From positions 1 through 44,420 of the IMG/VR virus record IMGVR_UViG_3300033143_001396: DNA of 44,420 bases, one strand, 5' to 3'. This stretch comes from a virus. Below the pieces are notes generated by a model, which worked only from the letters and a program-made list of their open reading frames with translations, was not told the DNA's origin and searched no databases. Position numbers and translations under genes: made by a program. Positions 111 to 44,420 of this stretch are shown one piece after another. The first letter of the stretch is position 1, and the number at the start of each line of letters is the position of its first letter.

Positions 111-138
111 GACATTCTGTTTTGAGATAGAAGATGTT

Positions 139-177
139 GGTCACAAAAGAACACTCTAGGAATATTCTTTTGTGACC
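139..177. other. perfect 13-bp hairpin
   Basis: Arms GGTCACAAAAGAA and its exact complement flank a 13-base loop. It lies just downstream of the odd tRNA cluster. No U-run follows on either strand, so it is more likely a transcript-end or processing structure than a classical intrinsic terminator. Confidence 0.6.
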
Positions 178-224
178 ACACTAGGATAACCTTCCTAATG
201 TGATCTTCATCTATGTTATATTAG

Positions 225-390
225 ATCACGTATAAGGTGATTGCGGATGCCAATTTCGCCACCCCATCACTAATTAAACTTTATTTTACGACCTTCTAAC
301 CAACCTTCTGTTAGAACATCGTCTTTTTTAACTTTCTTAGATACCATTAAATTTAATTAGTGATGGGGGCAGGACTCGAACCTGCATTAA
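225..390 (-). tRNA. candidate circularly permuted tRNA (complete anticodon arm with UAU loop)
   Basis: Read on the minus strand, the 3' part comes first: T-stem GCAGG, loop TTCGAGT, CCTGC, acceptor CCCCATC and A73 (385-361). About 90 bases later comes the 5' part: acceptor GATGGGG, TG, a Leu-type D-arm (GCG/CGC, 11-base loop) and an anticodon arm ATCAC-CTTATAC-GTGAT (268-225). The acceptor strands are fully complementary, and the pairing continues to a 17-bp helix. No other partner for either half is visible nearby, CCA is not encoded, and the variable region would be the junction. The permuted reading is inference from base pairing; an ordinary tRNA gene cannot be drawn here. Confidence 0.4.
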
Positions 391-449
391 TTGTATTTAG
401 ATTGAACTTACAGATCTCGTAATTTACAAATGATTGTTAACGCTAAAGA

Positions 450-543
450 ATTGTCGCATTACCACTATGCCACACCTCACCAAAATATACTATCTCAAAT
501 ATGTTTTGGTTGAGGTGGATGGAATCGAACCATCGTCTACAAT
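450..543 (-). tRNA. candidate circularly permuted tRNA (split in the anticodon loop)
   Basis: The 3' half comes first: ATTGT, AGAC, T-stem GATGG, TTCGATT, CCATC, acceptor CACCTCA, A73 and an encoded CCA (543-507). A 27-base spacer follows, then the 5' half: acceptor TGAGGTG, TG, D-arm GCAT-AGTGGTA-ATGC, G and ACAAT (479-450). The acceptor pairs 7 of 7, and ACAAT pairs 5 of 5 with ATTGT, so a full cloverleaf forms only if the halves are joined at the anticodon loop. CTT lies next to the break on both sides, suggesting a Lys-type anticodon, but the exact joined loop is unclear. Confidence 0.45.
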
Positions 544-605
544 TTAAGCTGGTCTACTACCAGCAAAATCATCTAAATCTTGGATTACCCTTACGTTCTA
601 AAATT

Positions 606-696
606 ATTTCGGACAATACATTAAGTTTGAATCTAATGCCTACACGCCATATGCGCTCTTAGGACTTATTAAAGCTGATGCTAAACTTACCGAAAT
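606..696 (-). other. tRNA-like structured element
   Basis: Outer 7-bp pair ATTTCGG/CCGAAAT encloses about 77 bases holding a T-arm-like hairpin around TTCAAAC and a GCGC/GCGT hairpin. Between this element and the next 3' half lies a GCTGG/CCAGC hairpin with a 7-base loop. No clear D-arm or anticodon. It may be a decayed tRNA. Confidence 0.25.
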
Positions 697-701
697 AGTA
701 T

Positions 702-728
702 GGGAGTCTTTCGACTCCCGAATTTTTT
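702..728 (+). terminator. GC hairpin with U-run on the plus strand
   Basis: GGGAGTC-TTTC-GACTCCC is followed, after GAA, by six T residues on the plus strand. On the minus strand the hairpin directly follows the 731-1474 gene but lacks a U-run, so there it may mark the 3' end of that mRNA or protect it. Confidence 0.5.
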
Positions 729-730
729 AC

Positions 731-1474
731 TTATCCTTTATTAATGAAATCAAGAATTGACTGACCAATGTGACTGTCAACAACATCTACGTTGTTAGCA
801 CGCATACGTGCCTTCTTCACAGCAGTAATCATTGCATCAAAACGTTCAAGACGTTCTGCCTTCTCGAAAGGAGATACCATACCAGACCATTTGGTCAAGG
901 TGTACTTACCAACGTTCACAGTGGTTTCAAGTTGTACAACTTGAGCAGGGTGTTTGTCGGTTGCAGGTGCCGCGGTGCGGAACTCAATATCTTTCTTTGT
1001 CTTGAACTGAATGGTGTCATCAGCCTTGAAGATGTTCTCGCCTTGAGAGGCATCGAGGGTCCAGTTAATGCCTGGTGCCAGTGTAGGAATCGATTCGTAT
1101 AGTTCACGAAGTTTGTTCAACTTCTTTTCCATACCAAGTAGGAAGGTCGCAGGAATATCTTTTCCAAGAGTTACATCACCAACAACAAGGTCTGCCTTTG
1201 CAGTCTGATTGGTAGATTCTTTCTGTAGAACAGCGTCCCAGTATCGAGCGATAGGTTCAACAAGATAATCAAGATTATCGTCAACAGTGGTTGTAAGAGC
1301 AACCTCATCTTCCGTATCAGATACAGACTCGGCTTCATCAAAGTGTTTCAGTCTGCGAACCGAAGCACTGAATAGGTTCTCTTTACCGAATGTACGTGAT
1401 GACTCTGCAACAAGTTTGTTGGTGACCTTCTCTAGGTCGTTCTCTACTGCCAATAGTTCGTGAAGCTTACTCAT
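731..1474 (-). CDS. conserved protein of unknown function (247 aa)
   Basis: A soluble protein with no signal peptide or membrane segment. It resembles a conserved family I have seen in bacteria as well as phages, with the characteristic stretches KLHELLAVE at the N-terminus, DAVLQKE(S)TNQ(T)AKAD near residue 85, PATFLLGMEKKLNKL near 108 and VGKYTLTKWSGM near 188. I cannot name its function. It has its own promoter (1524-1552) and an AGAG-type leader before the ATG, and it is followed by a hairpin, so it looks monocistronic. Confidence 0.85.
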   Translation of the reverse strand: MSKLHELLAVENDLEKVTNKLVAESSRTFGKENLFSASVRRLKHFDEAESVSDTEDEVALTTTVDDNLDYLVEPIARYWDAVLQKESTNQTAKADLVVGDVTLGKDIPATFLLGMEKKLNKLRELYESIPTLAPGINWTLDASQGENIFKADDTIQFKTKKDIEFRTAAPATDKHPAQVVQLETTVNVGKYTLTKWSGMVSPFEKAERLERFDAMITAVKKARMRANNVDVVDSHIGQSILDFINKG

Positions 1475-1523
1475 AATATATTTTTCTCTAAATTAAATGT
1501 TAAATAATAAGTTTGAAGTATCT

Positions 1524-1552
1524 ATCCTATCAAACTATGTTTCGTATGTCAA
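1524..1552 (-). promoter_or_regulatory. sigma70-type early promoter
   Basis: TTGACA, 17-base spacer, TAGGAT on the minus strand, about 50 bases upstream of the 1474 start. It overlaps the last codons of the preceding gene. Confidence 0.7.
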
Positions 1553-3127: not shown

Positions 3128-3321
3128 TCTTCAAAAACCTTCGCTCCGAATACAGGCACACAATGTTTGTCTCTTGGTAATGATTTTTCACATTCTACAA
3201 TAGACTGATTTGTTTGTGTGCCATATTCATATACAGGCGTTTTTTTCATTATCCACATTCCAAAAAACATTGAAATGATAACCGCCCAGACAAAAGCGAG
3301 AAGGATTCCATTGTTGTTCAT
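3124..3321 (-). CDS. small membrane protein (65 aa)
   Basis: Start MNNNGILLAF is preferred because GGAG lies 6 bases upstream, inside the RNA ligase gene end. One transmembrane segment at about residues 5-25 is followed by a short domain with two cysteines, probably periplasmic. Unknown function. Confidence 0.7.
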   Translation of the reverse strand: MNNNGILLAFVWAVIISMFFGMWIMKKTPVYEYGTQTNQSIVECEKSLPRDKHCVPVFGAKVFEE

Positions 3322-4421
3322 TGTACTCTCCAATTAACATCTTTAAAAATAAACTCACGGTTCTTAAACACGAAAGTCTTGTAGTTAACATCTTTGCCTA
3401 ACCACTTCTGCATCACCAAGGAGAACACATCAGACATATCCTTTTGACCTTTGATAGCAAAGTCCTTACGTTCAAGTTCTTTGTTGTTCTCTACGAACTC
3501 TTCCACTCTAGCAACAATATGATTGTACTTGTGGAATACCATTTCTTCAAAGTCGTCAATGATCTTGATAGTCAATGGGTCATCATGGAACAATGAACGT
3601 AGGTCATCAGAACCTTCCTCAAGAACACAACCAAGAAGTCTCTTTGGATGATTCACATCGTCCTTAGCATGATGCAACTCAACGTAACGGTCAGTCTTGC
3701 ACTTCACCTTGTGTTGTGACACAGGATGTTGGAATACAAAACCTTCGATAACAGTACCATCTTCGCCTTTCATAGCGGCAACATCTTCCATCTTGATATC
3801 TGTTTCGTATTTTACCCAATACTTTTTTAGACTAGGAGATGGATCTCTCAAATATTTCGCCGGCATGTAATCGCCATATTTTCGATTACGCACATTCAAG
3901 ATAACAAGTTTTGTTTCTGGATAAAGAATGACGATACGGTTATTAGGAGATACAATCTCCATATTAATGGTGTAACCTTCTTCTTCAATCTCTAATAAGA
4001 TAGCTTTGAATTTTGGTTGTGTGTTTAACCAAATCTCAGCAAGATGTACTTGGTCAGAGTGTAGAGAACCTTTAGTCTTCAATCGAAGATTTCCTTTAAC
4101 GTCAAGATAGGTAGAGATAAGAGAGCCATCCTCTTTAACCATAATCTCGGTGTATTCGTCCCAGTTAGTCTCTTCATGTTCAGGCCATTGATTGCACTCA
4201 CCATGATTCCAAAACTTTTCCATCGGGCGAGATACAATCTCTCCGTCACGGAACATAATACCACGCGCCTCTATTGCGCCTGGTTCTTGGAAGTCGGTGT
4301 ATGATGCAAGACGATACAAAAAGATTTCGTATGTCGAACCATCATCACCAGATTGGGTGGACTTGTAGAACGCCTCGTTGTTTTCAACAAGGTCGTTTAA
4401 ATTTTCGTATAACGTTTTCAT
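3318..4421 (-). CDS. rnlA: T4 Rnl1-type RNA ligase
   Basis: ATP-dependent RNA ligase that seals 3'-OH/5'-phosphate RNA ends; in T4 it repairs tRNA-Lys cut by the PrrC anticodon nuclease. The nucleotidyltransferase motif I KEDGS puts the adenylated lysine at about residue 96, close to K99 of T4. Preceding RGIMF and SRPMEKF, the motif NMEIVSPNNRIV and the late KVKCK block all match the T4 family, and the length (367 aa) is close to T4's 374. No polynucleotide kinase gene is seen in this window. Its start overlaps a 57-aa gene. Confidence 0.92.
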   Translation of the reverse strand: MKTLYENLNDLVENNEAFYKSTQSGDDGSTYEIFLYRLASYTDFQEPGAIEARGIMFRDGEIVSRPMEKFWNHGECNQWPEHEETNWDEYTEIMVKEDGSLISTYLDVKGNLRLKTKGSLHSDQVHLAEIWLNTQPKFKAILLEIEEEGYTINMEIVSPNNRIVILYPETKLVILNVRNRKYGDYMPAKYLRDPSPSLKKYWVKYETDIKMEDVAAMKGEDGTVIEGFVFQHPVSQHKVKCKTDRYVELHHAKDDVNHPKRLLGCVLEEGSDDLRSLFHDDPLTIKIIDDFEEMVFHKYNHIVARVEEFVENNKELERKDFAIKGQKDMSDVFSLVMQKWLGKDVNYKTFVFKNREFIFKDVNWRVQ

Positions 4422-11532: not shown

Positions 11533-11697
11533 TTAATATCCATCATCAAAATCGATTTGTTCTAAAAGAAAGTGAGAATAGTCTACTAGACCTTTTATCT
11601 TCTCTTCTTCCTCTTTAGGAACAGTTATATAACCATACTCCAACAAAACGGTCAATGTGTCCATCATATCTTGAATCTTTTCATTATCAAGATTCAA
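11533..11697 (-). CDS. hypothetical protein (54 aa)
   Basis: TTG start (LNLDNEKIQDMMDTL) overlapping the end of the upstream gene, with GGAGAAGAG before it; in-frame ATGs ten codons later are alternatives. Acidic helical peptide; ends 2 bases before the next start. Confidence 0.55.
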   Translation of the reverse strand: MNLDNEKIQDMMDTLTVLLEYGYITVPKEEEEKIKGLVDYSHFLLEQIDFDDGY

Positions 11698-11863
11698 GAC
11701 TCTTCTCCATTATCTTTCCTGCAGCCTCAAGTTGTTCTTTAATCTTACCACATAGTATCAACTCATTAGAATCAAGAGCGATGTTTCCATGCTTAAGAAT
11801 CTCTATACGAGAATGACAATGTTTTCTATTAAGAGAACAAGTACATTCTCTCTTAATCTTCAT
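11687..11863 (-). CDS. small Cys-containing protein (58 aa)
   Basis: Start MKIKRECTCSLNRKHCHSR; cysteines in ECTC and KHC suggest metal binding. It begins 7 bases after the upstream stop with a GGATG purine stretch. Confidence 0.6.
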   Translation of the reverse strand: MKIKRECTCSLNRKHCHSRIEILKHGNIALDSNELILCGKIKEQLEAAGKIMEKSLES

Positions 11864-11870
11864 TGCGCCA

Positions 11871-12194
11871 TTACATCCAGCGATAAGTTTTTTCAAAGAT
11901 TTCTTTATCACAGATATATAGTTCATCATCAATTCCTCTCATAAGATAATCTCCAGGTTTGCCCTGTTTGTAATCGCCCTCAAGACTGTTAACTCTAAAA
12001 TGTTCCTCAACTTGCATTGCATGAACCTCGATTGGTCTCTTCATACAAGTTGACATATCATCAACGACTTCAAATGTTTCAAATGTTTTCATACTATTTT
12101 CCTTTTCTGGGTAACAACAAGCAGAGAAATGGGTTATACCTTCTGTCGAATGACAAGAACATGTACAACCGTTATATGCGGGAGGAAGTGCCAT
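11871..12194 (-). CDS. conserved phage protein (107 aa)
   Basis: The N-terminus has a CTCSCH and CC cluster; the C-terminal part KPGDYLMRGIDDELYICDKE resembles a small phage family of unknown role. The start overlaps the stop of nrdJb (TAATG). An internal ATG at residue 35 (MKTFETFEVV) could be an alternative start. Confidence 0.65.
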   Translation of the reverse strand: MALPPAYNGCTCSCHSTEGITHFSACCYPEKENSMKTFETFEVVDDMSTCMKRPIEVHAMQVEEHFRVNSLEGDYKQGKPGDYLMRGIDDELYICDKEIFEKTYRWM

Positions 12195-12781
12195 TAACTA
12201 CACTTCGAGTAGTCACACTCACCATTCACACATTCCTCACAACCATCACTCTTAATAAGTGACTTCTCGCCACATACATGACACATCACAGCGTTAGGTG
12301 GGTATATAACCTCTTTCTTCTCTGTATCTCTTAGATGTTCTTCTAAAGTGATACCAATTTCAGAGACAATAGACTTAATGTATTTGCCTTTTGACCAATA
12401 ACCTCCATTTGGGTCGACCACTGACTTGAGTTCATCAACAAGGAATTTGATATCTTCCTTATCCTCTTTACGCATCACAGCGGAGATAACTCTAGTGATA
12501 GCAGTTGTCCACTGGAAGTGAGTCGTGTCCTTTGAGTTAATAAAAATCTCAAAAGGATTTCCATCAACATCATCATTGATGGTGATATATGCTGATGCTG
12601 AACCCGGTGGTTTAATCTTATAAGTATAACCCTGTAGTTTTTCTTCTCTAACCTTTAGTACAGGTTTTACACGTTCGGCCGGTGCTGCCTCAGGCAACAC
12701 CTCCACTGGTCTTAGTTTGGATTCGTCTGCATTTACTTTTAGAGAGACAATCTTTCCACTTAGTTTTTTAATTTCTGGCAT
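12194..12781 (-). CDS. nrdJb: class II ribonucleotide reductase, small C-terminal subunit (NrdJb-like)
   Basis: Matches the separate C-terminal piece of vitamin B12-dependent ribonucleotide reductases: LQGYTYKIKPPGSASAYITI, PFEIFINSKDTTHFQW, TRVISAVMRKEDKEDIKFLV and DPNGGYWSKGKYIKSIVSEIG. The tail carries CHVC and further cysteines that would relay electrons to the active site. It lies directly after nrdJa. The split form is like NrdJa/NrdJb of Pseudomonas. Confidence 0.9.
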   Translation of the reverse strand: MPEIKKLSGKIVSLKVNADESKLRPVEVLPEAAPAERVKPVLKVREEKLQGYTYKIKPPGSASAYITINDDVDGNPFEIFINSKDTTHFQWTTAITRVISAVMRKEDKEDIKFLVDELKSVVDPNGGYWSKGKYIKSIVSEIGITLEEHLRDTEKKEVIYPPNAVMCHVCGEKSLIKSDGCEECVNGECDYSKCS

Positions 12782-37622: not shown

Positions 37623-37742
37623 AATATCACCTTCCTTATAGGTATTGTACGTCATAAAGTGTCGGAAAAGTACTATTAACCGTCATAAAGAGTCTTAATA
37701 GTTCTTTTTAGTACTGTTATAAATTTAGAATTGTTATAAATT

Positions 37743-37817
37743 TGGTACGCCGAGAAAGAGTTGAACTTTCGACTCGCATGTTATGAGCATGGTGCTTTGC
37801 CATTAAGCTACCGGCGT
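37743..37817 (-). tRNA. tRNA-Met(CAU)
   Basis: Acceptor ACGCCGG/TCGGCGT, D-arm GCTTAATGGCAAAGC, anticodon loop CTCATAA, T-loop TTCAACT, CCA encoded. Could be elongator Met or a modified Ile tRNA. Confidence 0.88.
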
Positions 37818-37983
37818 GTTGTAAAAATGTTCCAAGATAGGTCGTTACCCTACTATTCGTCCAGTTAACCTCGTACTGCATCGCGCAGACTCAAACGGTC
37901 AGTGGGTCTCTTTCACTGGGATGTCCACCACTATATCTGATTGGTTTTACTAATTCCCAATCTTCATCTTAGAACTAAATCGG
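37818..37983 (-). other. non-coding stretch with several hairpins
   Basis: No plausible gene. ATTGG/CCAAT, CAGTG/CACTG and CTGC/GCAG hairpins and a T-loop-like TTTGAGT suggest a decayed tRNA or processing structures. Confidence 0.4.
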
Positions 37984-38076
37984 TGGGACCGAGAGGACTC
38001 GAACCTCTATCAAGGAGCTACCTTGTATCGCCAGATATACCACGGAATCGAACCGTTAACTCTTCCCGAGAGTCCC
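37984..38076 (-). tRNA. long-variable-arm tRNA, anticodon unclear
   Basis: Acceptor GGGACTC pairs 6 of 7 with CGGTCCC; T-arm AGAGG-TTCGAGT-CCTCT; variable hairpin CAAGG-TAGCT-CCTTG. The D region is enlarged and the anticodon stem GTAT/ATAC encloses 8 bases (ATCTGGCG). CCA is not fully encoded. Confidence 0.5.
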
Positions 38077-38077
38077 A

Positions 38078-38353
38078 TTATTCATTTTCAATGTCTCTTC
38101 TGAAACGTGCCATCAACATTATATACTCTGCAAAATTATCACAGTTATTTGTTAGTTTTGACATCTCGTTTATCTTGTGTCTTTTCTCTTCCGAGAAATA
38201 CTCAAAATGGACCAGCACCGCAGTAATTGATTGCGACATATATTGTTTTCTATCGAAACAAGAATCATAATCTGTTCCATATGGTTCAAGAGCACCGTAC
38301 GGGTTACAACCAGACAAAAGAACGACAATACAAACTAATATTAAATTTTTCAT
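38078..38353 (-). CDS. small lipoprotein (91 aa)
   Basis: Signal ILVCIVVLLSGC with lipobox Cys16, then a soluble helical part with two cysteines. Located inside the tRNA array, directly before a tRNA and after a terminator. Role unknown. Confidence 0.75.
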   Translation of the reverse strand: MKNLILVCIVVLLSGCNPYGALEPYGTDYDSCFDRKQYMSQSITAVLVHFEYFSEEKRHKINEMSKLTNNCDNFAEYIMLMARFRRDIENE

Positions 38354-38374
38354 AATTCCATTTATTACATATAC

Positions 38375-38414
38375 AAAAAAATCTTTCCATTATGTTTTCA
38401 CAATGGAAAGATTT
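38375..38414 (-). terminator. strong intrinsic terminator
   Basis: On the minus strand a 13-bp hairpin with arms AAATCTTTCCATT and its complement is followed by a run of T. It ends the 38.4-39.35 kb unit. Confidence 0.85.
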
Positions 38415-39353
38415 CTGATAGTGTTGAGATTATACACACAATAATTAGACTTTCGTTTTCGTACCACTCAGATGCGACTCTTCGTGTTAAAAACTTATCC
38501 ACTCTCACCAAGAGAGTATCTAATCATAACCGCCTTTTTTAAAGTGAGGCATTTCACTTGTCATAACAGGATATTCGACTTTCTAACTACCATCTACCGA
38601 TTAGGGCAGTGAAGATTCCGCTAAGAATCAATGTGCGTCTTTCAATCAATATTCGTCAACCTTGCGAGTTTCTGAATAACATACATTCTATTTCTAGTGT
38701 AGTATTAGGCTATTTTCACCTGTTACCGAGGACACCTTTGCGTTTTAATTTAAGTGTAAGGAGATATCGAAATCTCCAACAGTTTGCTTAAGAGGCAAAT
38801 GCTCTACCATTGAGCTATTACGAACCAACTACGATGTGCGTCCTCGATGTTTCATATCCCTTGCGGGTTACAAAATACACAACACCATATAGATTTTTGA
38901 CCGGCGGGTCTACTTCTCATTTTACTTCCCGAGTTCTTTGGAAACCCAGTTATAATGAACTATGCTTTGACCTGCAAAGGTCTGAAACTACAGTTCTACC
39001 GTTTATCATCTAATACTCAATGCTTAGAATATGCAGCGAGGTTTTCTACGCCTCTTCTCTCCTCAGAGTTACCCTAGAGATACTTACTACACGCATTGTC
39101 ATATTATATCTCCACCATTCAGGTGAAGAATCCTCGTAAGGATTGACTCAGCTTTTCTAGTTGAACCCATTGGGCGCGGTTATGTTGGAATCTCCGCTTT
39201 CATCATATCACTATGACTTATACTTTTATGTCTACTAGACTAGACAATTCTTTTGTTCTTCAATCAAACCATTTATGTGCAAAGCACAAGACACTTATGA
39301 TGTCAGAACATTTCGTTTAACTTTGAAAACTTGTTTTCTCAGTTGATAAATCC
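38415..39353 (-). ncRNA. transcribed region without substantial ORF
   Basis: Bounded by promoter 39354-39382 and terminator 38375-38414. It holds one tRNA-Lys-like gene (38753-38824) but otherwise only frames under 25 codons, for example MTMRVVSISRVTLRREEA behind GTGGAG and MTSEMPHFKKGGYD. Two related segments of about 45 bases (38625-38671 and 38829-38873) share CGCAAGG and GACGCACAT. It may be a structured RNA, a tRNA graveyard or a set of micro-ORFs. Confidence 0.45.
38753..38824 (-). tRNA. tRNA-Lys(CUU), degenerate acceptor
   Basis: D-arm GCTC-AATGGTA-GAGC and anticodon arm TTTGC-CTCTTAA-GCAAA are perfect. The T-loop has an odd size, and the acceptor TTCGTAA/TTACACT pairs in only 4 positions with no CCA, so it may be inactive. 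Confidence 0.6.
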
Positions 39354-39382
39354 ATTATATACAAAATCGTCAGACATTGCAA
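39354..39382 (-). promoter_or_regulatory. sigma70-type promoter
   Basis: TTGCAA, 17 bases, TATAAT followed by GG on the minus strand, reading into the ORF-poor 38.4-39.35 kb region. Confidence 0.7.
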
Positions 39383-39412
39383 GACATTTTGAAAATAATT
39401 TAAAACTTTATT

Positions 39413-39490
39413 TGGTACGCCTCCCCGGATTCGAACCGGGAACTCTGGGATCTTAAATCCCATGCCTACTGCCAATTGGGCTAGAGGCGC
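39413..39490 (-). tRNA. tRNA-Leu(UAA), short variable arm
   Basis: Acceptor GCGCCTC/GAGGCGT, anticodon arm TGGGA-TTTAAGA-TCCCA, T-arm CCCGG-TTCGAAT-CCGGG, CCA encoded. Variable loop only 5 bases, unusual for Leu. Confidence 0.82.
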
Positions 39491-39564
39491 ATTGAAATTT
39501 GGCGGCAAGAATCTCACTCGCCTCGCTTTCCCTTTGTTGCAATCTCCAGGTGCGTCTACATGTT

Positions 39565-39641
39565 TGGTAGTACCACCGAGAATCGAACTCGGATTTTACA
39601 CCTTATGAGGGTGTCGCCATTACCTTTTCAGCCATGGTACT
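39565..39641 (-). tRNA. tRNA-Met(CAU)
   Basis: Acceptor AGTACCA/TGGTACT, anticodon arm ACACC-CTCATAA-GGTGT, T-arm CCGAG-TTCGATT-CTCGG, CCA encoded. Confidence 0.88.
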
Positions 39642-39649
39642 ATAGAACT

Positions 39650-39919
39650 TTACTTTGCTTTAGGATAACAAGCAGGTCCACCTTTTTGGGTGCCTGCAAC
39701 TACAAAACACGACCATCTTGGATTGCGCGGTGCGTCGAACTCATAGAAACGAAAGTTACCGCCGTCTGCTTCAAGAGCAAACACTTGTGTAGGAATAGAT
39801 GTTCGCATTGCATTTCGGCCTTTCATCACAAGGTCACCAAGACCTCCGAATACAGTATCGCCAGCATTTGCGGTAGTCATGGTTGCCATCAAGGCAGTTA
39901 CAATCAATAGTCGTTTCAT
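39650..39919 (-). CDS. small secreted protein (89 aa)
   Basis: Start MKRLLIVTALMATMTTANAG has AAAGG upstream and forms a signal peptide ending ANA. The mature part has two cysteines and GGNFRFYEFDAPRNPRWSCF. Lies between two tRNA genes. Function unknown. Confidence 0.75.
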   Translation of the reverse strand: MKRLLIVTALMATMTTANAGDTVFGGLGDLVMKGRNAMRTSIPTQVFALEADGGNFRFYEFDAPRNPRWSCFVVAGTQKGGPACYPKAK

Positions 39920-39947
39920 TTTGTTACCTTTATTCATCATATAAAAT

Positions 39948-40021
39948 TGGAAGCGGGTGATGGAATCGAACCACCATCTGAGGGTTATGAGCCCAAAATT
40001 CTACCTTTATACCAACCCGCT
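39948..40021 (-). tRNA. tRNA-Met(CAU)-type
   Basis: Acceptor AGCGGGT/ACCCGCT with T73 and CCA; anticodon loop CTCATAA on a weak stem; T-arm GGTGG-TTCGATT-CCATC. Third CAU tRNA in the array; one may be the Ile(AUA) type. Confidence 0.75.
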
Positions 40022-40235
40022 ATTGTTAGTTAAATCATGTTCTCGGTGACTACACAAGGACGCTTCATCCTCAAGTCGGTTTCGAACCTTTTCGCTACTC
40101 CAAGTCAACTCAGTTTATAGAGAAGAACACGATTTAAAATTTTCTAATTGGAGGGATTCTAACCCTCTCTCTATTGAGTTTCAGACTTTCTTTAACTATA
40201 TGTCAAAGATAACGCTTTAAAAGCCTAATCACATT
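40022..40235 (-). other. tRNA-derived or structured non-coding stretch
   Basis: A long imperfect inverted repeat (40034-40046 with 40122-40136) encloses a TTCGAAA T-loop-like motif. Nearby, a T-arm-like GAGGG-TTAGAAT-CCCTC (40146-40164) lacks a matching acceptor. No plausible gene; looks like decayed or rearranged tRNAs. Confidence 0.4.
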
Positions 40236-40298
40236 TGGTAGCGAGAGTCGGATTCAAACCGACAGGTTCCACCTCATGGAAGTGGCGCGCTTCTCGCA
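40236..40298 (-). tRNA. D-armless tRNA-like element
   Basis: Acceptor TGCGAGA/TCTCGCT (6 of 7 pairs), A73, CCA, T-arm GTCGG-TTTGAAT-CCGAC and an anticodon-like arm CCACT-TCCATGA-GGTGG are present. Only 6 bases stand where a D-arm should be, and position 33 is C. Confidence 0.45.
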
Positions 40299-40350
40299 AT
40301 TGTTTGGCGCCGGTACGTCGATAAAAACGCATATCATCCGGCATTGAAAT

Positions 40351-40442
40351 TGGAGGAAGAGGAGGGATTTGAACCCCCGCACCCCGTAAAGGATGACCGG
40401 TTTTCAAGACCGGGACGATACCAGACTTCGTTTAACTCTTCC
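40351..40442 (-). tRNA. tRNA-Ser(UGA)
   Basis: Acceptor GGAAGAG/CTCTTCC, anticodon arm CCGGT-CTTGAAA-ACCGG, long variable arm, T-loop TTCAAAT, CCA encoded. Confidence 0.9.
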
Positions 40443-40444
40443 AG

Positions 40445-40537
40445 TTAATCTTTCTTTTCGTTGTTAATTCCACAACTTGCAAACATGATGAGTCCAATAA
40501 GAACCACACCAATCAAAATAATTTCACCACTAATCAT
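40445..40537 (-). CDS. 30-aa membrane peptide
   Basis: MISGEIILIGVVLIGLIMFA followed by SCGINNEKKD: one transmembrane helix with a short polar tail. AAGGAG at ideal distance and promoter 40564-40593 upstream make it convincing despite its size. Role unknown. Confidence 0.75.
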   Translation of the reverse strand: MISGEIILIGVVLIGLIMFASCGINNEKKD

Positions 40538-40563
40538 AAATTAACTCCTTAATAAGAGTGTCC

Positions 40564-40593
40564 ATTATAACAAATGGTGCGTCTTGGTGTCAA
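40564..40593 (-). promoter_or_regulatory. sigma70-type early promoter
   Basis: TTGACA, 18 bases, TATAAT followed by GG on the minus strand, ahead of the membrane peptide and tRNA-Ser. Confidence 0.75.
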
Positions 40594-40767
40594 GACAATT
40601 AAAAAGAAACTTAGATGATGACACGATCTGCATTTACAAGTCCCGGTTGTCACACCTCAACTTACGTTCAATGGCTCTTTTCAGATTACCACGAAGCGCC
40701 TTAGACCCTCATGCGGGTTGCTTTCGCCGGGTTTCTTATGTTTCCCAGTTCATCTATGTTTCAAACT
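40594..40767 (-). other. non-coding stretch
   Basis: No plausible gene. Contains the recurring AACCCGCA motif (near 40710) also found at about 38870 and 40977. Confidence 0.4.
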
Positions 40768-40839
40768 TGGTGGAGACATAGGAAGTTGAATCCTATCAAA
40801 GAATGTGCCACATTCTCTTAGTAGACCGCTACTATCCCC
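40768..40839 (-). tRNA. tRNA-Ala(GGC), shortened D-arm
   Basis: Acceptor GGGGATA/TGTCTCC, A73, CCA; anticodon arm AGAAT-GTGGCAC-ATTCT; T-arm TAGGA-TTCAACT-TCCTA. The D region forms a mini-hairpin GTAG-CGGT-CTAC. Confidence 0.7.
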
Positions 40840-40844
40840 GAATT

Positions 40845-40918
40845 TGGTGGAGCTACGGGGAATCGAACCCCGATCATCTACGTGCAAGGCAGATATAATC
40901 CCGTTATACTATAACCCC
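40845..40918 (-). tRNA. tRNA-Ala(UGC)
   Basis: Acceptor GGGGTTA/TAGCTCC, anticodon arm TCTGC-CTTGCAC-GTAGA, T-arm CGGGG-TTCGATT-CCCCG, CCA encoded. Confidence 0.88.
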
Positions 40919-41036
40919 AAAATACGCTATTGATTCTCTGATGACTACCCTCGCCCTTTGCCTTTCGGCTTCCAGACAATGCGGGTTCTGACCCCGTACA
41001 ACCTTCCATTCATCATTGATTAAAGGAAGAATCAAT
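40919..41036 (-). other. non-coding stretch with GNRA-like hairpin
   Basis: On the minus strand ACGGGG...CCCGC and GCC-GAAA-GGC hairpins; no canonical tRNA can be drawn. A 75-codon frame here overlaps tRNA-Ala and the next gene and is not credible. Confidence 0.4.
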
Positions 41037-41384
41037 TTAAAAATTTTCTTCGTCTGGTAACAACTCACAGACAAATCGGAAAATATCATTTGGGTCAACA
41101 TCCGACATTCCCCATTCCCAGTTAGTACCATCGTTCAGTACTAGTTCGCCTCTCATTGTCTTAACAGTGGACGAATCACAAAATGTTCCTTCGAATCCGT
41201 TCTCCATATCATCACGAACGGTGGACGTTTTGTTCCAATCGATACCAACCGACTTAATAAGTTTTCTACATTCTACAGAACTACCAACTTCGTTTCTATA
41301 ACTTGAGCCATAAAATGACCATCCTGTTATAATATTTCCTTTTTCTACAAGGAACTTCCATGCAATTTTATCTGCTTTATTCAT
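41037..41384 (-). CDS. hypothetical protein (115 aa)
   Basis: Soluble protein with three cysteines; contains NDGTNWEWGMSDVDPNDIFR. Overlaps the upstream gene by one base. No family recognised. Confidence 0.75.
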   Translation of the reverse strand: MNKADKIAWKFLVEKGNIITGWSFYGSSYRNEVGSSVECRKLIKSVGIDWNKTSTVRDDMENGFEGTFCDSSTVKTMRGELVLNDGTNWEWGMSDVDPNDIFRFVCELLPDEENF

Positions 41385-41641
41385 TAGACTTCTTCTATCT
41401 CATTTTCAATTAGTTCGATAATACTACCAACAAGAGAACGAAAATCTTCATCTTTGAGTTTTTCGTTATCAACATTCACTTTGAGCGTTGCCAAGAAACC
41501 AGAAACATTTCGTGATGTCTCATTCATGCCCAATTTGAACATTGTTTCAAAGTTGTTGCTCAGACAATCAGCGCCAGCAATAAAATTTGACATCTGGTTA
41601 TTTACTGCCTGTGACATATGGATTTGTGATAAACGTTTCAT
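41384..41641 (-). CDS. hypothetical helical protein (85 aa)
   Basis: Helical, ends in an acidic stretch (ELIENEIEEV). The ATG overlaps the stop of the upstream membrane gene (ATGA). Confidence 0.75.
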   Translation of the reverse strand: MKRLSQIHMSQAVNNQMSNFIAGADCLSNNFETMFKLGMNETSRNVSGFLATLKVNVDNEKLKDEDFRSLVGSIIELIENEIEEV

Positions 41642-41790
41642 GACAAAGAAGCCACAACGAACAATAAATTATTTGTTAGAAACAAACCAAACTGAAAAAC
41701 AGCATAACCATATTGTTTCTGATGTGTATACATTGATGAAAGTGTTAAAAACACTAGTGACAAGATAAACGCAACTGCTTCAACTTCCAT
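41638..41790 (-). CDS. small membrane protein (50 aa)
   Basis: MEVEAVAFILSLVFLTLSSM starts a frame with two hydrophobic segments. It follows promoter 41825-41852 and an AGAGAGAAAA leader and overlaps the next gene by 4 bases. Confidence 0.7.
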   Translation of the reverse strand: MEVEAVAFILSLVFLTLSSMYTHQKQYGYAVFQFGLFLTNNLLFVVASLS

Positions 41791-41824
41791 AATTTTCTCT
41801 CTCTTTTCTCAATCAATATAACCC

Positions 41825-41852
41825 ATTATACAGGTATCTATACTAAAATCAA
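41825..41852 (-). promoter_or_regulatory. sigma70-type early promoter
   Basis: TTGATT, 16 bases, TATAAT followed by GGG on the minus strand, ahead of a three-gene operon. Spacer, -10 and downstream leader resemble 36532-36559. Confidence 0.75.
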
Positions 41853-41853
41853 G

Positions 41854-41892
41854 AACTTATGCACATAAGTTTTCTATATACACATAAGCAAA
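41854..41892. repeat. copy B of a duplicated upstream promoter element
   Basis: ACTTATGCACATAAGT is a near-perfect inverted repeat, followed by TTTCTATATACACATAAGC; matches copy A at 36561-36597. May bind a regulator or RNA polymerase alpha subunits. Confidence 0.6.
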
Positions 41893-41958
41893 ATTAATGT
41901 CAAATAGTGACTTCCCTATCAAGGTGATTTACCCTAAACACATTTGACGATGATGAAC

Positions 41959-42033
41959 TGGTGCCGATAACAGAAATCGAATCTGTGACTCGTCCGTACC
42001 AAGGACGTATTTTACCTTCTAAACTATATCGGC
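41959..42033 (-). tRNA. tRNA-Thr(GGU)
   Basis: Acceptor GCCGATA/TATCGGC, anticodon arm CGTCC-TTGGTAC-GGACG, T-arm ACAGA-TTCGATT-TCTGT, CCA encoded. Confidence 0.9.
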
Positions 42034-42099
42034 AATGTCGGCTAAACTCTTTATGAGTGTCGTGAAGATGGAAGCCGTTCCATTTTCTTCACCATTGTT

Positions 42100-42175
42100 T
42101 GGTACGCCGAGCGAGTCTCGAACTCGCAGACTTTTGGGTTTGAACCAAAAGGGTATGCTTTCCCTCCACCGGCGC
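42100..42175 (-). tRNA. tRNA-Leu(CAA), short variable arm
   Basis: Acceptor GCGCCGG/TCGGCGT, D-arm AGGG/CCCT, anticodon arm TTTGG-TTCAAAC-CCAAA, T-arm GCGAG-TTCGAGA-CTCGC, CCA encoded. Confidence 0.82.
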
Positions 42176-42257
42176 ATTGAAATTTGTGACAAACTAAGGA
42201 CTTTCACCTCAACTGATTCCCGTAAATGCGCTTGTCAAGGCATTAAGTTATATTGTT

Positions 42258-42329
42258 TGGGTTCATATTCGGAGTCGAACCGCGAGGTGCTACCTCTATA
42301 CCTAGGATACCCACCACTGGGATATGAAC
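42258..42329 (-). tRNA. aberrant tRNA-like element, anticodon unclear
   Basis: Acceptor GTTCATA/TATGAAC pairs fully and CCA follows, but without a discriminator base. T-loop TTCGACT sits on a weak stem. The middle shows compact hairpins CCCA-GTGG-TGGG and GAGG-TAGCA-CCTC instead of normal D and anticodon arms. Confidence 0.45.
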
Positions 42330-42335
42330 ATTGTT

Positions 42336-42412
42336 TGGTGCCTCTGGTCAGAGTCGAACTGACAACACACGGATTCTTAGTCCGCTCCCTCTACCAATTG
42401 GGGCACAGAGGC
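42336..42412 (-). tRNA. tRNA-Leu(AAG), short variable arm
   Basis: Acceptor GCCTCTG/CAGAGGC, anticodon arm GCGGA-CTAAGAA-TCCGT, T-arm GTCAG-TTCGACT-CTGAC, CCA encoded. An A34 Leu tRNA is unusual in bacteria and phages. Confidence 0.75.
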
Positions 42413-42420
42413 ATTTTGTT

Positions 42421-42499
42421 TGGCGGCGGGTGACGGATTTTTACCGCCTTTGAGTCGTGGCCATGGAACTCACGTTCTCAGCAACATGCTATACCAACC
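42421..42499 (-). tRNA. aberrant tRNA-like element
   Basis: Acceptor GGTTGGT/ACCCGCC (one mismatch), G73 and CCA. T-loop TAAAAAT is non-canonical, D-arm AGCA-TGT-TGCT has a 3-base loop, and the anticodon region around TTCCATG has no clean stem. Confidence 0.4.
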
Positions 42500-42507
42500 A
42501 TTGTGTT

Positions 42508-42641
42508 TGGTGCCCAAGGCAGGATTCGAACCTGCAACGTACTCAGTCATGAACTGTCAATCATTTAACCGGTATTAGAGATTAGTGGTACATATCTCTC
42601 CGTTCTACACAGAGCGACTTTGCCAGTTTGTCCACTCGGGC
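42508..42641 (-). tRNA. tRNA with large insertion in the variable region (UAG-like loop)
   Basis: Acceptor GCCCGAG/CTTGGGC, D-arm GAC/GTC with an 11-base loop, anticodon arm CTCTG-TGTAGAA-CGGAG (G at 33), T-arm GCAGG-TTCGAAT-CCTGC, CCA. About 60 bases lie between anticodon and T-arm. They include an AGAGAT/ATCTCT hairpin, a second anticodon-like CAG-TTCATGA-CTG loop and two GTAC copies. Confidence 0.55.
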
Positions 42642-42649
42642 ATTGAAAT

Positions 42650-42723
42650 TGGAGCTACCACGGAGAATTGAACTCCGATTCGCAGACTGAAAACCTGCTG
42701 TCCTACCGTTAGACGATGATAGC
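42650..42723 (-). tRNA. tRNA-Glu(UUC)
   Basis: Acceptor GCTATCA/TGGTAGC, anticodon arm GCAGG-TTTTCAG-TCTGC, T-arm CGGAG-TTCAATT-CTCCG, T73 and CCA encoded. Confidence 0.88.
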
Positions 42724-42731
42724 ATTTTATT

Positions 42732-42814
42732 TGGTACGAGAGGAGGGATTTGAACCCTCAAGGGTACACGCTCTAAACGTGGTAGCTGTGCCAGTTTACA
42801 TTAACCACTCTCGC
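42732..42814 (-). tRNA. tRNA-Leu(UAG), enlarged D-loop
   Basis: Acceptor GCGAGAG/CTCTCGT, anticodon loop TTTAGAG between CACG and CGTG, T-arm GAGGG-TTCAAAT-CCCTC, CCA. The D-loop is about 7 bases longer than normal. Confidence 0.75.
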
Positions 42815-42820
42815 ATTGTT

Positions 42821-42893
42821 TGGAGCCCCATAGTGAAGTCGAATCACTGTAAGCAAGGTTCGTAACCTCGCCACCGGTTCCGCCGGATGGGAC
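42821..42893 (-). tRNA. tRNA-Arg(ACG)
   Basis: Acceptor GTCCCAT/ATGGGGC, anticodon arm CGAGG-TTACGAA-CCTTG, T-arm AGTGA-TTCGACT-TCACT, T73 and CCA encoded. D-arm GC-rich and atypical. Confidence 0.8.
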
Positions 42894-42945
42894 ATTGTTT
42901 GACTATAGTAACAGTCTTAAAGACCCTTTAAGCGTGTTAATACAG

Positions 42946-43533
42946 TCATTTTCTACAGAATGTTGTTTGTTGACTATTACAGTTTGGACACAACATTCTT
43001 AAATTTTTTAATCTATTATCGTTATTCGTACCGTTTATATGATCTAGTACCATAACAATTTCTTTTCCGTTCCACTCACTAATGTTACATACCGAACATC
43101 TGTTTTCAAGAACACCTTCTTTAATCAATTTTCTCTTTAGTGTTCCTCTTGAAACGGTTGAATTCTCAACTAAACATTCATCAAGTGTATATTTGGTATT
43201 ATTAGATGTTCCATGCGACTTACCAGTAAAGTGGTCTGTCGATAGTTTCAATCTAACAATATGTCTATTAACTGTATTGTAATTTCCTGGTCGAACGGTT
43301 AAGTTCAACTTTCTCAATACATCAGCCATTGTAAAAGAGGTTTCAGCAGATTCTATAAGTTCTTCATCTGTCCAAGTTCTTTTATTATGTACACTGTCAT
43401 AATATTCTTTTAGTTCAAGTTTCTTTAACCAATATCTCATTGGCGTATTGGTCAATCCGAAAAACTCTGCCATTTCTCTTATATTCTGGCCAGAGTCTAT
43501 CTGTTTTTTGGTGTTAAAATAATCTGGATGCAT
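42946..43533 (-). CDS. HNH homing endonuclease (195 aa)
   Basis: C-terminal HNH domain: CSVC, then VLDHINGTNNDNRLKNLRML and CPNCNSQ. The N-terminal 130 residues carry helix-turn-helix-like repeats (NIREMAEFFGLTNTPMRYWL; FTMADVLRKLNLT) for DNA recognition. It lies inside the tRNA array with its own CATAAATA late-type element. Likely a free-standing mobile endonuclease gene. Confidence 0.88.
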   Translation of the reverse strand: MHPDYFNTKKQIDSGQNIREMAEFFGLTNTPMRYWLKKLELKEYYDSVHNKRTWTDEELIESAETSFTMADVLRKLNLTVRPGNYNTVNRHIVRLKLSTDHFTGKSHGTSNNTKYTLDECLVENSTVSRGTLKRKLIKEGVLENRCSVCNISEWNGKEIVMVLDHINGTNNDNRLKNLRMLCPNCNSQQTTFCRK

Positions 43534-43565
43534 AATTGTTTTCCGTAGTTTTATTTGTATACTAC

Positions 43566-43573
43566 TATTTATG
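43566..43573 (-). promoter_or_regulatory. T4-like late promoter element
   Basis: CATAAATA on the minus strand, 33 bases before the HNH gene. Confidence 0.55.
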
Positions 43574-43606
43574 AAAACTGCACTCTACAATTTTAACTAT
43601 AGAATT

Positions 43607-43682
43607 TGGTGCCTTCTGTTGGTTACGCTCCAACTCCCGCGAGACTTCAATCCGCTGCTTCTACTAAGTTAGCTTAGAAGGC
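43607..43682 (-). tRNA. tRNA-Phe(GAA)-like, non-canonical T-loop
   Basis: Acceptor GCCTTCT/AGAAGGC, A73, CCA; anticodon region GCGGA-TTGAAGT-CTCGC with one mismatch; T-stem GTTGG/CCAAC but loop AGCGTAA instead of TTCRANY. Confidence 0.6.
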
Positions 43683-43790
43683 AAAGTTAAGAACATCATT
43701 TATCACTGACAGGTTCAAAGTGATGTTCTCTCATTCGGCACTCTCTGTTGCTGTCAGACAACATCAAATATACCTATCTTAAAAGAAAGT
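43683..43790 (-). other. structured non-coding stretch
   Basis: No plausible gene. AGAACATCA/TGATGTTCT (9 bp) and CTGACAG/CTGTCAG inverted repeats suggest a folded spacer or tRNA remnant. Confidence 0.4.
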
Positions 43791-43863
43791 TTATGATAAC
43801 GGGATTCGAACCCGTGGCTTCCCTCTTCTACGAGGGGCCTCTACCAGACTGAGGTACATCACT
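43791..43863 (-). tRNA. tRNA, anticodon uncertain (GUA/UAG region)
   Basis: Acceptor AGTGATG/TATCATA (6 of 7, two wobbles), D-arm CCTC-AGTCTGGTA-GAGG, T-arm ACGGG-TTCGAAT-CCCGT. The stem CCCTC/GAGGG leaves a 6-base loop GTAGAA, so the anticodon cannot be set. No CCA encoded. Confidence 0.6.
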
Positions 43864-43879
43864 CTTTCTTTCTTGAATT

Positions 43880-43956
43880 TGGAAGGGGAGATGAGATTCG
43901 AACTCATAAATGACAGGCTCAAAACCTGTTGCCTTAGACCGTTTGGCGACACCCCT
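43880..43956 (-). tRNA. tRNA-Gln(UUG)
   Basis: Acceptor AGGGGTG/CTCCCCT, anticodon arm ACAGG-TTTTGAG-CCTGT, T-arm ATGAG-TTCGAAT-CTCAT, CCA encoded. Confidence 0.88.
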
Positions 43957-43968
43957 ATTGTTACTAAT

Positions 43969-44049
43969 TGGAAACGTTGACTGGAATCGAACCAGCAATT
44001 TTTAAACTGGATTTGCAATCCAGGCCCTTACCATTCGGGTCACAACGTT
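43969..44049 (-). tRNA. tRNA-Cys(GCA)
   Basis: Acceptor AACGTTG/CAACGTT, anticodon arm CTGGA-TTGCAAA-TCCAG, T-arm GCTGG-TTCGATT-CCAGT, CCA encoded. Variable loop of about 10 bases. Confidence 0.88.
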
Positions 44050-44057
44050 ATTAAATT

Positions 44058-44131
44058 TGGTCCTCAGTAGAAGAGTTGAACTTCTGTCTATCGGTTATCA
44101 GCCGATTGCTCTACCGTTGAGCTAACCGAGG
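44058..44131 (-). tRNA. tRNA-Ile(GAU)
   Basis: Acceptor CCTCGGT/ACTGAGG, D-arm GCTCAACGGTAGAGC, anticodon arm ATCGG-CTGATAA-CCGAT, T-arm AGAAG-TTCAACT-CTTCT, CCA encoded. Confidence 0.9.
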
Positions 44132-44141
44132 AATGTTAAAT

Positions 44142-44215
44142 TGGCAGGCGATGAGAGAATCGAACTCCCGTTAAGGGATTTGGAATCCCCTGTGATACCA
44201 TTACACTAATCACCC
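44142..44215 (-). tRNA. tRNA-Trp(CCA)
   Basis: Acceptor GGGTGAT/ATCGCCT, anticodon arm GGGGA-TTCCAAA-TCCCT, T-arm GGGAG-TTCGATT-CTCTC, G73 and CCA encoded. Confidence 0.88.
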
Positions 44216-44224
44216 ATTGAAATT

Positions 44225-44297
44225 GGTGCCGGATGAGAGAATCGAACTCCCAACAAATGCTTACAAGGCAATTGTTATACCATTTAACTAATCCGGC
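44225..44297 (-). tRNA. tRNA-Thr(UGU)
   Basis: Acceptor GCCGGAT/ATCCGGC, anticodon loop CTTGTAA, T-arm GGGAG-TTCGATT-CTCTC, CCA encoded. Confidence 0.88.
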
Positions 44298-44309
44298 AAT
44301 ATATATATT

Positions 44310-44396
44310 TGGCGGAAGGTGCGAGAATCGAACTCGCATGACCCGTTAAGGTCAACAGATTAGCAGTCTGCGGCAATACCGTTATGCGAACCTTCC
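44310..44396 (-). tRNA. tRNA-Ser(GCU)
   Basis: Acceptor GGAAGGT/ACCTTCC, anticodon arm GCAGA-CTGCTAA-TCTGT, long variable arm TGACCTTAACGGGTCA, T-arm GCGAG-TTCGATT-CTCGC, G73 and CCA encoded. Confidence 0.9.
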
Positions 44397-44404
44397 ATTA
44401 AATT

Positions 44405-44420
44405 TGGTACCCAGTGTTGG
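44405..44420 (-). tRNA. 3' end of a tRNA cut by the window edge
   Basis: CCA and acceptor-type sequence (CTGGGTACCA) with the same spacing as the other array tRNAs; the rest lies outside. Confidence 0.6.

Follow-up and report, generated by a model that had tools for sequence, protein, structure and literature searches.

The tRNA-like domain of the bacterial Y RNA YrlA is a circular permutation of a tRNA (PMC11472068); it is joined via its anticodon-stem side to another helix (RF02553; PDB 6CU1), and the RNA gene adjoins the gene for the protein partner, Ro60/Rsr. Red algae, green algae and archaea also carry circularly permuted tRNA genes, which are spliced at a bulge-helix-bulge (BHB) motif into a normal cloverleaf with an anticodon (PMC3978253). 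In permuted two-piece transfer-messenger RNA (tmRNA; RF04321, RF01849 to RF01851), the T-arm and 3′ acceptor strand are likewise encoded before the 5′ acceptor strand, with a spacer between. Here, we analyzed a viral stretch of 44,420 nucleotides (nt), the IMG/VR record IMGVR_UViG_3300033143_001396 (the window), in which tRNA parts occur in permuted order on the minus strand (module A; Table 1). Module A belongs to a widely conserved but unannotated RNA family that adjoins the DUF7873 (PF25283) gene in many phages and in Streptomyces. It is likely a structured noncoding RNA, a permuted tRNA mimic that works with the DUF7873 protein encoded upstream and resembles a Y RNA rather than a precursor tRNA sealed by an Rnl1-type ligase. 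A literature search, with most subscription journals outside its reach, found no paper on permuted tRNAs in phages or on DUF7873.

Direct reading of the letters confirmed the arrangement proposed in the original prediction: the T-arm, 3′ acceptor strand and ACCA are followed, after 27 nt, by the 5′ acceptor strand, U8 and the D-arm. The acceptor strands pair at 7 of 7 positions, and an anticodon-type stem (ATTGT/ACAAT, 5 of 5) closes the module on its outside. The predicted extension of the acceptor stem, CCAAAA with TTTTGG across the 27-base spacer, is also present. Neither ARAGORN nor the Rfam tRNA model reported module A. Covariance modeling without the window ranked it as the top site there (52.4 bits, E = 2.4e-18, in one search; 62.7 bits, E = 1.9e-22, for a match at 438-549, in another). 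The runner-up in the window, at 35.7 bits, was a site where two ordinary tRNAs meet in tandem.

The original prediction had overlooked both a second module (module B) and the linkage to DUF7873. DUF7873 was found in 82 records from phages of Vibrio, Rhizobium, Klebsiella, Serratia, Gordonia, Arthrobacter, Rhodococcus, Pseudanabaena, Microcoleus and Prevotella, as well as in actinobacterial replicons, in at least 184 IMG/VR contigs (counted by the protein) and widely in Streptomyces. Matches in genomes ran to hundreds, and the 80 that were retrieved were all from Streptomyces. A strict scan, which required a T-arm followed by an acceptor partner paired at 7/7 positions and after it U8 and a D-arm whose loop contains GG, was applied to 100 DUF7873 loci (phages, a few actinobacterial replicons and IMG/VR contigs; some near-identical, 90 distinct). 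Of these loci, 83 had a permuted module on the same strand no more than 1.2 kb downstream. Matches there numbered 87 in total, compared with none downstream on the other strand, one upstream and none upstream in reverse orientation. Among distinct loci, modules occurred at 0.87 per kb downstream of DUF7873 and at 0.004 per kb in real flanks, a 219-fold difference, and 490 kb of shuffled downstream sequence gave no match. Of the four matches elsewhere, three came from Rhizobium phage TM30, where they lie in the gap that precedes a TROVE/Ro60 gene. All 80 retrieved Streptomyces loci had one or two modules, with a single reverse-strand control match, and their remaining neighbors varied between genomes. 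Two modules about 145 to 200 nt apart were found in most actinobacterial, actinophage, Klebsiella and Pseudanabaena copies and a single one in many other phages. The window's module is a DUF7873-linked RNA in this sense, since it lies downstream of PF25283 on the same strand and matches the covariance model. Because the strict scan was nearly empty in shuffled and flanking sequence and an independent model ranked module A first, it is not a chance arrangement. Relatives retained the permuted order and did not show the halves in normal order, so the original prediction's own ground for refutation, a rearranged pseudogene, does not hold.

A close relative of the window indicates how the protein and the RNA travel. 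UViG_3300033142_000627 is 99.98% identical over 10.9 kb and matches the window from position 12421 to 1548 and then from 114 to 1; in between, the DUF7873-RNA segment is replaced by 758 bp that carry a homing endonuclease gene (10876-11538 of the relative, opposite strand). No DUF7873, no RNA-model match and no tRNA were found in this record. Since so similar a relative is without both, DUF7873 and the RNA form one replaceable cassette, and in phages the DUF7873-RNA locus can be a swappable one. An RNA ligase gene is common to the window and this relative. A nucleotide search of the window against a phage collection returned nothing near and one partial match to a homing endonuclease. The window's DUF7873, used as a single-protein query, found nothing in viral and genome collections; alignments did find relatives. 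A defence-system library gave no match.

Pairing was compared across modules to characterize the RNA further. Acceptor, T-arm and D-arm pairing is partly selected for by the detection rule, of which the anticodon stem is not a part. That stem was fully paired (5/5) in 65 of 107 modules, compared with 9.1 when partners were shuffled (maximum of 17 in 300), and the modules had 87 distinct acceptor sequences. In 39 representatives, selected for 4/5 or more anticodon pairs, all 21 pairs showed two-sided changes, with a covariation of 0.85 versus 0.21 after shuffling. RNAalifold analysis of 13 actinobacterial and actinophage sequences found compensatory changes in 37 of 51 pairs, and two of the helices concerned lie outside module 2's anticodon stem. 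Since helices outside the anticodon stem covary, the anticodon loop is replaced by an internal loop from which more helices continue. The window copy folds much like its relatives, with an outer helix beyond the anticodon-type stem; this helix is present in the unconstrained minimum fold, and a fold constrained to contain the tRNA-like stems is 1.2 kcal/mol less stable. In a comparison of D-side flanks, the 3′ side of the window's internal loop resembled a TTARNCTGAY-like motif of relatives. At the other end, the acceptor strands of relatives are often closed as a single hairpin, and 24 of 58 long spacers show pairing across the spacer by the bases that follow the discriminator (CCA with UGG), compared with 4.8 in shuffles.

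These comparisons bear on two explanations that do not involve a tRNA mimic. The flanks could be a split self-splicing intron that circularizes a tRNA exon, as in a natural permuted intron-exon arrangement. The flanks of module 1 are indeed conserved on both sides in actinobacterial copies, but flanks differ strongly among phage groups, and no intron family reached the gathering threshold at any of 13 loci, nor a relaxed threshold in the window or in locus L018; we regard this explanation as highly improbable. A group I split intron was rejected for want of model support, and a hammerhead-like CTGATGA...GAAA around one Streptomyces module was dropped as unconserved. Alternatively, the module could be debris of a tandem tRNA array that lost its outer halves. 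The T-half of one tRNA followed by the D-half of the next accounts for the 35.7-bit runner-up, and tandem duplication is a plausible origin; as an account of the present element, however, debris is scarcely credible and already contradicted, since order, covariation and protein linkage are conserved across very distant phages and Streptomyces.

The original prediction held that the break lies in the anticodon loop and that an Rnl1-type ligase could seal the halves into a tRNA. Under that explanation, the halves would be excised, and Rnl1 or some other ligase would join them in the anticodon loop to give a decoding tRNA. The complete cloverleaf parts, the encoded CCA, the 5/5 anticodon stem and the RNA ligase gene of the window are in its favor, and the locus shares half order, paired acceptor strands and an intervening spacer with the algal and archaeal genes. 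Unlike those genes, it lacks a conserved anticodon loop, and no ligase is linked to it. Among 89 modules, joining the halves did not yield a conserved canonical anticodon loop (U33, 7 nt): position 33 was T in 37 of them, compared with 255 of 271 ordinary tRNAs from the same loci. In addition, the outer helices covary, and CCA is often buried within an extended hairpin. An Rnl1-type ligase occurred in 6 and RtcB in 4 of 28 DUF7873 genomes (host ligases lie outside this count), so that ligase presence is not consistent in DUF7873 phage genomes, and the window's close relative, which has no such RNA, keeps the ligase; the RNA ligase is thus unlinked to the module. A genuine permuted tRNA gene is therefore very unlikely. 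What stands of the proposal is a real, evolutionarily maintained permutation in a phage; a joined, Rnl1-sealed working tRNA is unsupported.

An aminoacylatable RNA in two pieces, like permuted tmRNA, would need no ligation: RNase P and 3′ processing would excise the spacer, the halves would stay paired, and the CCA would be charged. Permuted tmRNA demonstrates such a route (PMC11915505), 69 of 107 modules have NCCA after the acceptor, short A-rich spacers at many loci resemble processed tRNA spacers, and positions 472-534 of the window show weak similarity to the beta_tmRNA and tmRNA_permuted models. Those model scores are below threshold and cover the tRNA-like part only (tmRNA_permuted gave 22.7 bits in the window versus the 47 needed, and none of 13 loci reached its gathering threshold), and unlike permuted tmRNA the module has a full D-arm. 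The sole tmRNA match in the 13 loci was a standard tmRNA elsewhere. Moreover, many long spacers pair CCA with UGG, and pairing of RCCA with the leader is reported to hinder RNase P (PMC9433436). Second modules of Streptomyces have loops such as GCTCGA, without CCA. We consider a two-piece RNA unlikely. As a separate observation, Gordonia phage Phendrix carries a standard tmRNA gene (locus positions 572-1100, 89 bits) within a tRNA array.

The closest counterpart of the DUF7873-linked RNA is YrlA. In both, a circularly permuted tRNA-like domain sits on a stem, joined through its anticodon-stem side to another helix, and the RNA gene adjoins a protein gene. The Rfam YrlA model could be aligned along its whole length to each of the two modules in one Streptomyces copy (28.3 and 26.5 bits). 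Full-length YrlA matches of 23 to 41 bits were found in DUF7873 genomes and include the DUF7873 RNA of most genomes placed by coordinates; some other matches lay elsewhere or on ordinary tRNAs, and control genomes also gave subthreshold matches. Unlike YrlA, the RNA has DUF7873 rather than TROVE/Ro60 as its partner, often has two modules, and frequently carries NCCA. TROVE was found in 2 of 24 DUF7873 genomes, one of which, Rhizobium phage TM30, has separate YrlA-like RNAs near its TROVE gene. These three further permuted modules (locus positions 11581-12384, before TROVE/Ro60), two of which score 36 to 37 bits with YrlA, are likely phage Y RNAs. Deinobacterium chartae, a control genome (Deinococcota chromosome), contains DUF7873 and TROVE as well.

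By analogy with YrlA and Ro60, the DUF7873 RNA probably works like a Y RNA, with DUF7873 in the place of the protein. The T-arm and D-arm would form a tRNA elbow, and the acceptor strands would form a stem with, in most cases, a capping loop. The root would be on the anticodon-stem side, where the conserved internal loop would connect the tRNA-like arm to the rest of the RNA. DUF7873 may bind the RNA body, and the arm may recruit or block a tRNA-binding partner, such as a tRNA-processing, -modifying or -cleaving enzyme; for the complex and for the arm's ligand alike, we infer from the Y RNA precedent. Several observations weigh against a DUF7873-bound, Y-RNA-like mimic. The best YrlA score is 41 bits against a 69-bit gathering cutoff, and the YrlA model gave no match on the window's module. 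NCCA is more frequent than a pure mimic needs, which could be an inheritance from a parent tRNA. No permuted module was detected downstream of DUF7873 in Prevotella phage Lak-B6, and module B of the window is poorly formed. The predicted structure of DUF7873 (AlphaFold, pLDDT 94) had no significant PDB or BFVD match, and its contact with RNA is putative. Because scores are subthreshold, the window's module is unmatched and TROVE is rare, we do not call the element a Y RNA but describe it as built like one.

Table 1. Features of the window. Parts of module A are listed 5′ to 3′ on the minus strand. MFE, minimum free energy; ORF, open reading frame.
Feature	Position	Strand	Basis
Module A, permuted tRNA-like	450..543	minus	direct reading, scan, independent covariance model
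Module A, 39-43 strand, ATTGT (followed by AGAC)	543-539	minus	
Module A, T-arm, GATGG-TTCGATT-CCATC	534-518	minus	
Module A, 3′ acceptor, CACCTCA	517-511	minus	
Module A, ACCA	510-507	minus	
Module A, spacer	506-480	minus	
Module A, 5′ acceptor, TGAGGTG (followed by TG)	479-473	minus	
Module A, D-arm, GCAT-AGTGGTA-ATGC (followed by G)	470-456	minus	
Module A, 27-31 strand, ACAAT	454-450	minus	
Capping loop, ACCAAAACATA..TATTTTGG, making the acceptor a single extended hairpin with bulged discriminator A	480..510	minus	sequence, MFE fold; shared by relatives
Putative outer helix enclosing module A, 5′ strand, AUUUAGAUGAUU	567..578	minus	MFE and constrained folds; equivalent helices covary in relatives
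Putative outer helix, 3′ strand, AAUCAUUUGUAAAU	422..435	minus	MFE and constrained folds
Small hairpin, GCTGGTAGTAGACCAGC, internal loop 5′ side	548..564	minus	fold
Internal loop 3′ side, TCTTTAGCGTTAAC, at the place of an anticodon loop	436..449	minus	D-side flank comparison
Module B, second T-half/D-half pair (T-arm 385-369; acceptor CCCCATC 368-362 and GATGGGG 268-262; D-arm to 243)	243..385	minus	scan
25-codon ORF in module B spacer, tail of GIY-YIG-type homing endonuclease	270..347	minus	blastn to Pseudoalteromonas phage XG4
Terminator-like hairpin, GGTCACAAAAGAA..TTCTTTTGTGACC, 3′ end of element	139..177	minus	sequence and fold
DUF7873 (PF25283) gene, 247 aa, co-directional, directly upstream; presumed protein partner	731..1474	minus	PF25283, E = 6.4e-72
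Whole cassette, DUF7873 and RNA	115..1547	minus	blastn vs UViG_3300033142_000627, ORFs
RNA ligase gene	3318-4421		

Module B sits where relatives have module 2. It scored 18 bits with the covariance model, has a long spacer and is without an anticodon stem, and it is possibly degenerate. In Pseudoalteromonas phage XG4, a full GIY-YIG-type homing endonuclease gene abuts a tRNA-like sequence. Elsewhere in the window, a tRNA array on the minus strand (37700-44420) includes very divergent tRNA-like units missed by ARAGORN, some nearly without a D-arm (for example, 40283-40219, 40845-40770 and 42330-42255).

What began as a single odd locus in a phage thus becomes a conserved pair of protein and unannotated RNA, in at least 184 viral contigs (counted by the protein) and hundreds of genome matches. 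More tentatively, DUF7873 and its RNA may constitute an undescribed ribonucleoprotein, independent of Ro60 and shared between phages and Streptomyces chromosomes, whose arm might control tRNA metabolism or counter tRNA-cleaving phage defence. These results suggest that permuted tRNA mimics in bacteria and phages are commoner than one would expect from the Y RNAs linked to Ro60, and Streptomyces genetics, with one protein and one RNA, offers a tractable handle on the role of the mimic.
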